64,000 nt of DNA from NCBI RefSeq assembly GCF_036417845.1, contig NC_090018.1:293425-357424 (forward strand), read 5' to 3'. The translations under genes and the position numbers were made by a program. The notes beneath the pieces are model-generated. The model searched no databases, was not told where the DNA came from, and saw nothing but the letters and a program-made list of their open reading frames with translations. Below, piece after piece: positions 7,501 to 57,600 of this stretch. How positions within the stretch are numbered: the stretch's first letter is position 1; each line of letters opens with the position of its first letter. The stretch comes from Apteryx mantelli (Eukaryota; Chordata; Aves; Apterygiformes; Apterygidae).

Positions 7501-10500
7501 AGGAGCTCAAGGTGCGCCGGCCCTTTAACGTGTGCCCCGCCCCTTTCCCTGAGGCCCCGCCCCTTTCCCTGAGGCCCATCTTCTTCCCCTTGGCCCCCCT
7601 CCTGGGTGGGCAGCAAGGCTCCGCCCCCACACTCAGCCACACCCTGGTTCATTAGCATGGCAAGCCACACCCTCTGGGGTGAGGTCACAGTCCCCAAGCC
7701 CCACCCCTTCCCCAGGCCACGCCCTCCTTTCATTATCCTGGTGGGACCCTGCTCTAGGTGTGCTGAGCTCCGCCCCTCCCTGGCCTCTGAGGCCCCGCCC
7801 CTTCTGGGACCACACCCTATGAGCCCCCACCCCTACAGGCTCCACCCACACAAGGCCCCACCCCTCTAAGGCCCTGCCCCCTCCCCAGCCAAAGCCCTGC
7901 CCCACCCCTGCTGAGGCTCCACCCCCTCTGTGGCCCCACCCCCACCCACTGTGGCCCCACCCACTGTGGCCCCGCCCCCCCAGGATGCGCAGGCGGAGGA
8001 GGAGATCCGGCAGGAGATGAACCAGCTGCAGCAGCGGCTGACGGAGCAGCAGAGCGTGCTGCAGCGCATCGCCGCCCCCAACATGAAGGCCATGGAGAAG
8101 CTGGAGAGTGTCCGCGACAAGTTCCAGGAGACCTCCGACGGTGCGGGGGGGGGCGGCACGGGGGGGACACCAGGAGCCTCCGCGACAAGTTCTGGGAGAC
8201 CTCTGATGGTGCCGGGAGGGACACGGGACGGAGGAACATGGGGGGACACCAGGAGCCTCCACGACAAGTTCTGGGAGACCTCTGACGGTGTGGGGGGGGC
8301 GCAAGGGGACGGAGGGGACATGGGACATGGGGAGCCTCCACGACAAGTTCCAGGAGACCCCCAACAGTGCCAGGGGGACACCAGGAGCCTCCACACCAAG
8401 TTCTAGGAGACCCCTAATGGTGACATGGGGGGGACACAGGACGGGGGGGACATGGGGGGACACCAGGAGCCTCCATGCCAAGTTCCAGGAGACCCCCAAC
8501 GGTGCCAGGGGGGACACGGGACGGGGGTGGGCACGGGGGGGACACCAGGAGTCTCCACACCAAATTCCAGGAGACCCTCAGCGGTGACACAGGAGGGACA
8601 CGGGACACGGGGAGGCTCCGTGCCCAGTTGCGGCAGGGCCGGGGGTGATGTGGGGACAAGCGGGCCGGCGGGGGGAGCCCCCCCCCGAGCCCGGCACCCC
8701 CCCGTCCCCCCCCGCAGAGTTCGAGGCGGCGCGGAAGCGGGCCAAAAAGGCCAAGCAGGCCTTCGAGCAGATGAAGAAGGAGCGCTTCGACCGCTTCAAC
8801 GCCTGCTTCGAGTCCGTGGCCACCAACATCGACGAGATCTACAAGGCCCTGTCGCGCAACAGCAGCGCCCAGGTACCGGCGGGGCCTCGCGCGGGGCCTC
8901 GCGCCCTCCCGCGGGGCCTCGCACGAGGGCCGACACCCCTGCGTCCCCCCAGGCCTTCCTGGGCCCCGAGAACCCCGAGGAGCCCTACCTGGACGGCATC
9001 AACTACAACTGCGTGGCCCCGGGCAAGCGCTTCCGGCCCATGGACAACCTCTCCGGCGGCGAGAAGACCGTGGCCGCCCTCGCCCTGCTCTTCGCCATCC
9101 ACAGGTGGGGCCCCCCGGACGCCTGGGCCCCCGGCAGGGGGGTGGGGGCTGTCCTGGACGTCTTGGTTCTTATTTTTGCCCCCCTTTTCCCCCCCCCCAG
9201 CTATAAACCAGCCCCGTTTTTCGTCCTGGATGAGATCGACGCGGCACTGGACAACACCAACATCGGCAAGGTGGGCACTGGGGGGGAGTTTGGGGTCCCC
9301 TGGGGGGGGGTCGGGGCTCCCAGGGGCAGTTTCAGGTTACTGGTGGAGAGTTTGGGGTCCCCGGGGCAGTTTTGGGGCTCCTGGGGGGATTTGGGGGGCT
9401 CCCTGGGGGCAGTTTTGGGGTCTTGGAGGGGGGTCAGGTCTCTCCGGGGGCAGCTTTGGACTCTTGGGGGGCGATTTGGGCTCCTGGGGGACTTTAGGGG
9501 CTCCCTGGGGGCAGTTTGGGGCTCGGGGGGGGGGGGGTCAGGTCTCCCTCGGGATGGTTTTGGGCTCCTGGGGGGTTGACCAGGGGTTTTGGGGGCTCCC
9601 CAGGGTGCTCTGGGGTCCCCGGGGGGTGATTTGGGGGTTCCTGGGGGGGTTGAGTCCCTCTGGGTGAGGTTTTGGGGTCCCCAGGGCATTTTGAGCTCCC
9701 CAGGGGGGTCCCTGGCAGAAGTTTGGGGTCCCTAGGGGGGTTTTGGGGTCCCTAGGGAGGGTCAGGGCTCCATGGGAGCAGTTTCAGGTTCGCTGGGGAG
9801 GTTTGAGGCCCCCTGGGAGCAGTTTTGGGCCCCTTGGGGTGTTTTGGTGTCCCGGGAGAGGGTTAGGGGCCCCTTGAGGCAGCTTGAGCAGCTCTGGGCA
9901 CAGTGGTGGGGTCCCTCGGCTGCTCTGGGGTCCCCCGATGCAGTTTCGGGGTCCCTGGGTGCCAATTTGAGTTCCCCAGCTGCAGTTTTAGGGTCCCCAG
10001 GTGGCTTCAGGGTCCCTTGGATGCCCTTTTGGGGTCCCCAGCTGCAGTTTTGGGGTCCCCTGGCCACTTTGGGGTCCCCTGGGTGCAGTTTTGGGCTTCC
10101 CAGGGGTGGCTTGGGGGTCCATGGCTGCAGTTTCGGGGTCCCTGGGTGCAGATTGTGTGTCACCTGGCTTCTTGGGGGTCCCTGGGTGCCATTTTGGGGT
10201 CCCCAGGGGTGTTTTTGGAGTCGTGGGGTGCCATTTTGGGGTCCCAGGGGTGTTTTGGGGATCCTGGGGTGTCATTCAGGGTCCCTGGGTTCAGTTTTGG
10301 GCTCCCTGGGGGCATTTTGGGGTCCCCAGGGGTGTTTCTGAGGTCCCTGGAGGTGGTTTTGGGGTTGCAGGGGCGTTTTGGGGGTCGCGGGGTGGCGTTC
10401 GGGGCCGTTTTGGGGGTCCCCGTCCCTGGGTGCTGACACCCCCCCGCAGGTGGCCAACTACATCAAGGAGCAGTCGGCCGCCAACTTCCAGGCCATCGTC

Positions 10501-54600: not shown

Positions 54601-57600
54601 GCAGGGCCCCATAGCGCTGCCGGGGGGGGGGGGGGGTCCCAAAACCACTGGGAGGGGGAGGAATGAAACCACCAGGTTGGGTTTGGGGGGGGGGGGGGGG
54701 TTGCAGGTCTTGAGAATACTGTGGGGGAAGACCTTGGAATTCTCTGTGTGTGTTGGGGGGGGGGGGAGGGGTTGAAATGGCTATGGAGGAGCCTTGGAAG
54801 TGGTATGGGGAACACCTTGAAACAACTGCCTGTGAGGAGTCTGGGAACTGCTATGGAAAGGGGGCATTGAAAATACAGATGGGAAGCCTTGAAACTGCTG
54901 GGTGAGGAACCTGCAGCTAGGGTGCCTTGAAACTTACAGGAGGACCTTGAAACAGCTATAGAAGGCATTCTTTACAGATGGGGTGCCTTGCAACTACAAT
55001 GGATTTTGGGGGGGGGGGGGTGGACCTTGAAAATGTGGGAGAGGTACTTGAAACTGCAGGGGAGGGCTTTGAGGTGGGGTTGCCTTGAAACTGCAGGTGG
55101 GAAGCCTTGAAACTGCTGGGGGGGGTGGGCTTGAAACTATTCGGGGGGCTTTGAAAAAGCAAGATGGGCACTTGAAACTGCAGGTGGGGAGCCTTGAAAC
55201 TGCATTTTTTAGAAGCCTTGAAATGGGGGTGGAAAGCCTTGAAACTGCAGGGGGGGGGCTTTGAGGTGGGGTACCTTGAAACTGCTATGGGGGGCCTTGA
55301 AGCTGCTGGAGGGGATGGGCTTGAAACTGCATTTGGGGGGCCTTCAAACTGTGTGTGGGGGGGTGAGGCTTGAAAGTGCAGGTGGGAGGGCTTGAAACTG
55401 CATTCTGGGAGGCTTTGAAACAGGGGGCACTTGAAACTGCAATGGAGGGAGCCTTGAAACTGCAGGGGGAACCTTGAAACCACCAAGAGGGGGAAACCTT
55501 GAAAGTTGGGAAAACCTTGACACTGTAATGGAAGGGCCTTGAAACTGCAATGGATGGGGGGGGCTTGAAACTCCTGGGGGTGTGTGTGTGAAACTTAGGG
55601 GTCCTTGAAACTGCACTTGGAAAAGCCCTGAAACTGCTATGGCAGAATCTTTAAACTGGATGGGTTGCTCAAAACTGCTAGTAGGGGAGCCTTGAAACTG
55701 CTATGGAGATGCCGTCAAAGCACAAAAGGGGGGGGGGGGCAGGGGTTGCAACTGCAGTGGAGTATCTTGAAACTGTACTTCAGAGAGCCCTAAATTTGCA
55801 GAGGAAGGGGAGGCATGAAACCAGCTTGGGAAGCCTTGAAGTTGCAGTTGGGGGAACCTTGAAGCTGCTATGGAAAGCCCACAAACTGCTGGGGCAGTTT
55901 TCAAACTGCAAGGTTGGGGGGGGGGCCTTGAAACTGACAGGAAGAAGATTGAAAAATGCTGTTTGGGAATCTTGAAGCTGCTATGGGGAGTCTTGAAATG
56001 CCGGGGGGGGGGGGGGGTCCTTGATACTGCTGAAGAAGACCTTTAAACTGCTTTGGGGACTTGCGAAACTGGGGTGGGGGGGCTTGAAGTAGTTACAGGG
56101 GGTGATGAAACTTCGGGGGGGGGGCCTTGAAACTGCAAGAGTCTGAAGCTGTTAGGAGGCCTTGAAACAGCTGGGGTGGGCCTTGCAACTACTATGGGTG
56201 GCCTTAAAATTGCTGGGGGTGGGCTTGAAACAGCTATGTGGGGGGGGGCCTTAAAACTTGGGGCTCAGAAGTGCTGGGGGGGGGCCTTGAGACTGCTGGG
56301 GGGGGTGGGTGTCAAAACTGCTGGAGGAGCTTGAAACTGCAGTGGGGAGGCCTCAAGACCCTGTTGGGGTGGGGCTTGAAACTGTGGGGGGGGCCTTGAA
56401 ACTCTGAAGGGGGGGTATTGAAACAGCTATGGTGGGCCTTGGCACTGTGTGAGGGGGCCCTGGAGATGATGGGGGGGGCCCAGAGACTGCTATGAGGGGC
56501 CTGGAGACCATGGGGAGGGCCTGGAAACTGCCTGGGGGGGGGGGCACAGACACTGCAGTGGGGAGCCTGGAAACCACTGCAGGGGGGCCTGGAGACCGCC
56601 AGGGGCACTCACGCAGGCCAGCCCTCGAAGGTGGAGACGGTGAAGAGCGCCATCATGCCGGCCAGCACGTTGTCGAAGTTGAAGTCGCTGTTGTGCCAGA
56701 GGCGCTCGCGCACCGTGGGGTGCGCCACGTCCCCGTCCTTGTACACGATGAACGTGCCCCTGGGGACCTGCGTCAGCCCCGCCACCCGGGGGGGGGCGGT
56801 TGGGGGGCAGTTGGGGGGCAGGTTAGGGGGCAGTTGGGGCGCACTTGCACTCTGCAGGCGTGTGCTTGGCCTCGTCGGTGCAGCTGTAGAACTTGCCCTG
56901 GGGGGAGCCGTTTGGAGGGGGGGGGGTCATCCTGGGCCCCCCCTGGCAGGAGTGACCCCCCCACAGGCCCCCCCGGCCCCCCAGTGTGGCGGCACCTTGA
57001 AGAGCTGGACCCCGATGCAGGCAAACATGAACTGCAGCAGTGTTGTCACGATCATGATGTTGCCGATGGTGCGGATGGCCACGAAGACGCACTGCACCAC
57101 GTGCTGCGCACCAGTGACACCAGTGTCACCAGTAACACCAATGACACCAGTAACACCCCCACCCCCCCAGTACATGCCGTACCTCATACTGCACACCAGT
57201 GACACCAGTGTCACCAGTAACACCAGTGACACCACCACCACCCCCCCCCCGGCACGCACTGCACCACGTGCTGCGCACCTGTGACACCAGTGCCACCAGT
57301 AACACCCCCCCCACACACACACACACACACATTACACCCTGGGCTGCAGCACCAGTACGCGCCAATAACATGCCCTGCACCATGTCTTAGATCACTAGTA
57401 CTCCCAGTATGCACCAGTAACACTTGCTGCCCCCACACCAGTGCTCCCAGTATACACCAGTAACAGGCACCACTGTCCTCCACACACAGTGCTATGAGAA
57501 CACCAGTGCACCCAGCACACACCAGTAACACCCACTGCCCCCCCTGTGTCCCCGGAGGGCAACAGCCCCCAGCCCCTCCCAGTGTTCCCAGTGCTCCCAG

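Follow-up and report, generated by a model that had tools for sequence, protein, structure and literature searches.

Exon edges and splice sites repeated in the introns of SMC1A, KDM5C and CACNA1F of Apteryx mantelli: exon stuttering that probably arose without coupling to splicing

Why should the unit of an intronic tandem array contain the edge of the neighboring exon, together with its splice site? This question is raised by a stretch of 64,000 nt of Apteryx mantelli DNA (GCF_036417845.1, NC_090018.1, positions 293,425-357,424, forward strand; “the window” means this whole stretch, and all coordinates are window positions), in which a first-pass annotation had described such arrays in SMC1A intron 20, in KDM5C introns 11 and 25, and in the CACNA1F intron preceding exon 57103-56996. 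We confirmed that observation, a correct and sharp one of a phenomenon published only recently as exon stuttering, while its interpretation is partly supported: a coupling to splicing was probably not involved in the formation of these arrays.

The G+C content of 2-kb blocks is 56-78% across the window and tandem repeats are abundant (351 rows of Tandem Repeats Finder, TRF); this base composition (0.56-0.78) and repeat content are compatible with an avian dot microchromosome. Exons were placed by tblastn with human protein sequences, followed by refinement of the splice sites under GT-AG and reading-frame constraints, a few junctions being set by hand, so that all 93 introns are GT-AG by construction; the acceptor of KDM5C intron 25 was shifted by 1 base after the initial modelling. 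Gene names rest on the tblastn matches, with SMC1A, IQSEC2 and KDM5C on the + strand and CACNA1F on the - strand. The latter, which we take to be CACNA1F, was located with the CACNA1D protein, and its paralogue name was taken over from the first-pass annotation. The 93 introns comprise 24 of SMC1A, 14 of IQSEC2, 26 of KDM5C and 29 of CACNA1F (an incomplete set, numbered in its own order), and 185 rather than 186 edges were screened, the acceptor of IQSEC2 intron 1 being excluded for its uncertain exon start. Three parts of CACNA1F whose introns were not modelled, and its 3' end (below about 50800), did not enter the counts, and the coverage comparison leaves aside about 6,400 bases that bear no label; the placement null covers arrays with units of at least 18 nt. 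Introns longer than 3000 bases were trimmed to the nearest 3000 in the shuffle and copy-count tests, which concerned only IQSEC2 intron 2. Intron lengths seem bimodal, with 55 of the 93 below 170 bp (9 with arrays) and 38 at 170 bp or more (31 with arrays), and the median length is 89 bp without arrays vs. 449.5 bp with them. We also observed that the CACNA1F exon coding for LFSVILEQ...FDVKALRAF (63001-62861, -) is broken across two reading frames with no space for an intron, possibly through an assembly error.

All four named introns contain direct copies of the adjoining exon edge together with its splice junction, located where the first-pass annotation had placed them, and in 4/4 the best-aligned copy spans the exon-intron border. 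The sources and their arrays are given below, with a slash marking the junction.

8104..8140, + strand: source, 3' end of SMC1A exon 20 with its donor, ACG/GTGCGG (spliced protein alignment, sequence)
8174..8660, + strand: SMC1A intron 20 array, seven donor-side copies (z 13.7, rank 1)
42040..42066, + strand: source, 5' end of KDM5C exon 12 with its acceptor, CCCCCCCAG/GGG (gene model, sequence)
41838..41995, + strand: KDM5C intron 11, acceptor-side copies at 41950-41995, 41896-41927 and 41838-41864 (z 10.0, rank 1)
46608..46640, + strand: source, 3' end of the KDM5C exon preceding intron 25 with its donor, GAG/GTGAGA (gene model, alignment)
46732..47348, + strand: KDM5C intron 25 ladder, seven donor-side copies (copy count, rank 1)
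57087..57103, - strand: source, first 17 nt of CACNA1F exon 57103-56996 with its acceptor, GGTGCGCAG/CAC (gene model, sequence)
57181..57295, - strand: CACNA1F acceptor-side copies at 57295-57254 (40/42) and 57213-57181 (29/33) in an array with a period of 85 nt (z 5.6, rank 1)

In SMC1A, exon 20 ends in AGTGTCCGCGACAAGTTCCAGGAGACCTCCGACG/GTGCGG, and the seven intron copies that follow all carry GT at the corresponding place, with decoy junctions after 8208, 8287, 8366, 8419, 8501, 8583 and 8644. Six of these copies are 70-83% identical to the exon edge over 50-64 aligned positions, and the seventh, at 8644, is weak (41/66). The acceptor of KDM5C intron 11, CCTGACTGTGTCCCCCCCAG/GGGCGAGCCCAAGACGTGGTACGGGG, recurs 70 nt upstream with 42/46 positions matching, polypyrimidine tract and AG included, and there are two further degraded copies; in the best one (41950-41995) the decoy exon would start at 41970 and runs into an in-frame TAG. 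Two nucleotides past this strong decoy acceptor there is a donor-like GTGAGC (41970-41977, +), a layout resembling a recursive splice point. The exon end preceding KDM5C intron 25, ...CTCCTCCTTGAG/GTGAGA, is repeated seven times within that intron, with junctions after 46759, 46819, 46962, 47075, 47180, 47242 and 47325, six having GT and the one at 47180 GC; an eighth alignment (47432-47495), weak and without a splice site, was left out. In CACNA1F, the 40/42 copy consists of 25 intron and 17 exon nt, and weaker copies exist besides the 29/33 one. TRF arrays cover 0.77 of SMC1A intron 20, 0.50 of KDM5C intron 11 and 0.40 of the named CACNA1F intron, whereas KDM5C intron 25 has no TRF row at score 50, yet its seven-copy ladder is seen by alignment. 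Donor and acceptor versions thus both occur, in three genes and on both strands, as had been claimed.

Could chance similarity between GC-rich, low-complexity sequences produce such matches? When every exon edge was compared with 100-200 dinucleotide shuffles of its own intron, the z-scores were 13.7 for SMC1A intron 20, 10.0 for KDM5C intron 11, 5.6 for CACNA1F and 3.6 for KDM5C intron 25. Of the 185 edges, 4 in sense and 1 in antisense exceeded z 5, four of either kind exceeded z 4, and 10 in sense and 6 in antisense exceeded z 3, so that a single score of z 3-4 stands at the noise level. Counting copies against 100 shuffles gave seven in KDM5C intron 25 (shuffle mean 1.06, maximum 5), six in SMC1A intron 20 (0.24, maximum 2) and two in KDM5C intron 11 (0.16, maximum 1), with 53 matches vs. 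32.1 expected over all edges; counts above the shuffles were also found for IQSEC2 intron 4 (6, maximum 5) and SMC1A intron 10 (1, maximum 0), and the named CACNA1F intron was not flagged by these 100 shuffles. When each exon edge was ranked among the roughly 92 other edges of the same side, all scored against the same intron (the comparison that the first-pass annotation had proposed), the four named pairs came first without ties. Altogether, 8 of the 185 edges ranked first vs. about 2 expected (185/93), the other four being CACNA1F intron 21, which was kept, and SMC1A intron 18 and KDM5C introns 5 and 19, which look chance-like. Windows from exon interiors reached P<=0.02 in 5 of 134 cases (2.7 expected) vs. 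11 of 185 edges (3.7 expected), by itself too small a contrast to separate edge from interior.

A less sensitive measure, blastn-short at the settings of PMC12954441 with matches of at least 20 nt, gave seven proximal matches, five of them in SMC1A intron 20 and KDM5C introns 11 and 25, with a best score of 34.2 bits; these did not rise above the distal matches (36, best 36.2 bits), those to other genes (55, best 34.2) or the antisense ones (best 40.1). This result, the missing flag of CACNA1F in the copy count, the sense-antisense equality at z>4 and the chance-like GC matches of several short introns are what a chance explanation can draw upon. Against it, the four named pairs beat every other same-side edge, three of the four introns have more copies than any of their 100 shuffles, and a 40/42 match runs across the CACNA1F junction. 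The support resides in matches that are longer, tolerant of mismatches, junction-spanning and repeated. Chance is therefore extremely improbable as the explanation, and it is strongly disfavored for SMC1A intron 20 and KDM5C introns 11 and 25.

Screening the 185 edges of 93 introns brings in three more: two likely cases in CACNA1F, whose introns begin at 53073 and 58457, and a weaker candidate in SMC1A intron 17:

52982..53039, - strand: likely case, a single ungapped copy (43/58) of the CACNA1F exon end at 53074, donor CAG/GTGCCA intact (z 5.2, rank 1)
58333..58419, - strand: likely case, two donor-side copies (40/46 and 29/39) of the CACNA1F exon end at 58458, GT lost (copy count, alignment)
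6766..6941, + strand: weak case, SMC1A intron 17, units of a 19-nt type with about 15 nt of exon end and the donor (3 copies vs. a shuffle mean of 0.53, maximum 3)

The intron starting at 53073 is only 136 bp long and contains its diverged donor-side copy inside. For the exon end at 58458, one further edge does equally well or better in the rank test. All seven candidates together comprise five donor-side and two acceptor-side cases, an imbalance that is not significant (P=0.45). Other edges had one copy-count match at P<0.1, for instance those of CACNA1F introns 19, 24 and 26. We dropped the acceptors of SMC1A intron 18 and KDM5C introns 19 and 7 and the donors of KDM5C introns 5 and 26, which ranked high but through short GC-rich or gapped matches. 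The IQSEC2 intron 4 donor, with six loose matches above all 100 shuffles, was discarded because its units are a generic GGGGC-type repeat, as was the SMC1A intron 10 acceptor, whose single loose match in the copy count gave no convincing copy on inspection of the alignment. Apart from these introns, nine copies (at most 4 mismatches) of a donor-like GAG/GTAAAAAGTGAGG, spaced at 40-48 nt, lie between the 3' ends of KDM5C and CACNA1F (48399-48755, +), and the first of them comes after GCCGCCATGAGGCTCCCTGAG/GTAACG, which resembles the short first coding exon of a candidate gene.

What do the copied splice sites amount to? The ladders of decoys beside authentic sites announced by the first-pass annotation do exist, and their strength ranges from dead to higher than authentic, as scored with a weight matrix built from the 93 authentic sites, tested sites included. 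In KDM5C intron 25, three of the seven decoy donors outscore the authentic one (11.6 vs. 10.2) and another is about equal (10.0), and in KDM5C intron 11 the decoy acceptor scores 16.9 vs. 15.2 for the authentic one, reading on from it giving GELKTW and then a stop in frame. These values speak for a retention of the arrays because of a decoy function, in which the decoys would compete with the authentic site and so tune how KDM5C or SMC1A is spliced or its mRNA decays. In contrast, the decoys of SMC1A intron 20 are weak, none scoring above the 6th percentile of the 93 donors, those at 58.4 kb in CACNA1F are dead, with GT lost, and the three CACNA1F acceptor decoys that were scored are weaker than every authentic acceptor. 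Such weak and dead sites in SMC1A and CACNA1F speak against the decoys being conserved as a class, and retention for function is very unlikely as the explanation; the decoys are probably mostly unused. The authentic acceptor of CACNA1F exon 57103-56996 has the lowest score of all 93, and upstream of it (57127-57103, -) the minisatellite units CTGGTGTCACTGGTG occupy the place of the expected polypyrimidine tract.

Does the process that made these arrays seek out junctions, or even introns? TRF arrays cover 47% of the 34,901 intronic bases, 53% of the 6,227 bases of four intergenic or flanking stretches and 9% of the 16,488 bases of modelled coding sequence. Within the latter, one array deserves comparison:

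15735..16497, + strand: array of 30-nt in-frame units, coding for a decapeptide, in IQSEC2 coding exon 2 (TRF, translation)

This open exon of about 1076 nt (15628-16703, +; start uncertain) carries array periods of 30, 60, 90 and 120, all multiples of 3, and as read from the translation, repeat expansion alters coding sequence too. Among TRF rows in modelled exons, 21 of 31 have a period divisible by 3, vs. no clear frame preference in introns, where the remainders 0, 1 and 2 occur in 92, 78 and 81 rows. With arrays present in exons and in intergenic DNA, the process is not confined to introns, and it is probably selection that decides what is seen.

As for the junctions, we laid seeds of the observed unit length uniformly on the introns and counted an array when at least 12 exon bases were included. 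With smallest units (18-85 nt in the counted arrays) and with collapsed introns, in which each array is reduced to a single unit, the expectation is 5.0 junction-containing arrays among 59 (95% range 2-9), and 3-4 TRF arrays with a junction are seen (SMC1A intron 20, KDM5C intron 11, CACNA1F and perhaps SMC1A intron 17), in agreement with random placement under this one reasonable null. Introns being short and the units 18-85 nt long, random duplications will often cross junctions, and the premise that generic slippage would not favor junctions is not supported. Junction targeting is thus not required, although there may be a modest bias, or a deficit.

A process in which mutation depends on transcription or splicing, through R-loops, U1 or spliceosome-bound nascent RNA, or transcription-replication conflict, would instead duplicate splice junctions preferentially. 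The seven candidates, more than the 2.5 expected at present-day intron lengths, would fit it, and so would the lean of intronic arrays toward G-richness on the sense strand (38 G-rich and 24 C-rich of 70). The published screen (PMC12954441) found >90% of the copied exon segments at most 1 base from the exon border, which agrees with such a process, but any intron-side duplication reaching the exon gives the same. Moreover, intergenic and flanking DNA is as rich in arrays as the introns, the long IQSEC2 array lies in a coding exon away from junctions, the G-lean reaches only P=0.10 and is weak as an R-loop strand bias, and the nulls with collapsed lengths or 85-bp introns work without any junction preference. 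The splicing or R-loop coupling contemplated by the first-pass annotation hence finds no support here, and we consider it unlikely.

Most likely, then, the junction arrays arose by local tandem duplication in a chromosome region that is GC-rich and hypermutable, blind to position and filtered by selection rather than coupled to splicing. The first duplicated segment would by chance straddle an exon-intron border; the outermost junction would remain in place and continue to serve as the splice site, while the inner copy, carrying a portion of the exon plus a splice site, would land in the intron, free to diverge and to be amplified further like any minisatellite. Duplications inside exons would survive mainly when in frame, and those in introns or intergenic DNA freely, so that position-blind duplication and selection together would leave junction arrays as their visible remainder. 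Presumably the duplications arise by slippage or template switching in G-runs, or by unequal exchange; the hypermutability and the role of selection are likewise probable components. At 5 of 45 columns in SMC1A intron 20, a base unlike that of the exon is common to at least 70% of the copies, and the copies are about as similar to one another (0.70) as to the exon (0.69), a hint in the alignment of one capture followed by amplification.

Several points weigh against position-blind duplication. The placement null depends on its assumptions: with smallest units (59 arrays), 5.0 junction arrays are expected in collapsed introns, 2.5 at present lengths and 12.8 in introns of 85 bp, and with best-score units (68 arrays) 11.2, 6.3 and 28.9, that is, 2.5-28.9 over the six sets. 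Against the smallest-unit null at present lengths, seven candidates are too many (2.5 expected, P(>=7)=0.007), although this null starts from lengths greater than the original ones, and some of the seven were missed by TRF as arrays; under the 85-bp and the best-score collapsed nulls there is instead a shortfall of junction arrays. The flanking stretches may contain untranslated transcribed DNA, and among the 31 exonic TRF rows there are 10 whose period is no multiple of 3 (scores 57-113), every one of them in IQSEC2 exons other than exon 2. For KDM5C intron 25, identity to the exon (0.65) exceeds that among the copies (0.57), which also fits repeated capture; these copies may reflect either an old burst or repeated capture.

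The copies might also have been made or multiplied by errors of long-read assembly or polishing, and the CACNA1F exon divided between two reading frames indicates that local sequence errors may exist. However, the copies are 0.55-0.95 identical to the exon and mutually different, unlike the stuttered assembly of one unit, and in PMC12954441 the repeat structure of PHF8 introns was checked with raw nanopore reads; an artifact of this kind is as improbable as chance.

The class itself is not new, although the first-pass annotation knew of no description of it. Sequence stuttering on chicken dot chromosomes, with exon stuttering as a named form, was described by Hron et al. (Genome Biology and Evolution, GBE, Feb 2026, PMC12954441), the sole description of stuttering in introns that our literature search found, at least in the sources accessible to it. 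Exon stuttering shares with our arrays an exon edge and its donor or acceptor tandemly repeated in the adjoining intron, in direct orientation and with the source at the border, as well as units that are imperfect and tens to hundreds of bases long and a GC-rich and gene-dense setting; its introns are full of simple repeats, and of ours three of the four have the TRF coverage given above. That screen used blastn-short with matches of at least 20 nt and a bit score of at least 42.1, which appears there as a cut-off and not as a stated criterion of the class. None of our seven proximal matches reaches 42.1 bits (best 34.2), nor does any other match class, and scores below this cut-off indicate that the copies here are more diverged or shorter. 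By the stated criterion, the four loci belong to exon stuttering, their alignments being of the kind that the cut-off misses. SMC1A, KDM5C, CACNA1F and IQSEC2 are not named in the main text of PMC12954441, and the IQSEC2 coding array differs from its statement that the blocks are confined to introns and coding regions remain intact.

Ordinary intronic minisatellites have the same head-to-tail imperfect units and nested higher-order periods (among the TRF rows listed), but the units here include exon sequence and a splice site. Introns are also reportedly gained by tandem duplication of an exonic AGGT segment, the duplication inside an exon making a new intron. In both situations a second splice site is introduced by tandem duplication; here, however, the duplication spans an existing border and an old intron acquires decoys, the numbers of exons and introns staying constant.

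In summary, exon stuttering was recovered independently from sequence only, and to what PMC12954441 describes, the window adds diverged cases below the cut-off, a placement null that does without junction-seeking, and a coding exon with a long in-frame array. It is quite unlikely, in our view, that splice junctions are modest hotspots of tandem duplication whose decoy ladders, in which some decoys beat the authentic sites as in KDM5C introns 11 and 25, act as length-polymorphic splicing noise, burdening the genes of dot chromosomes and helping to drive their loss. With their decoys scoring above authentic sites, these two introns make the cost of such repeats to splicing directly measurable.

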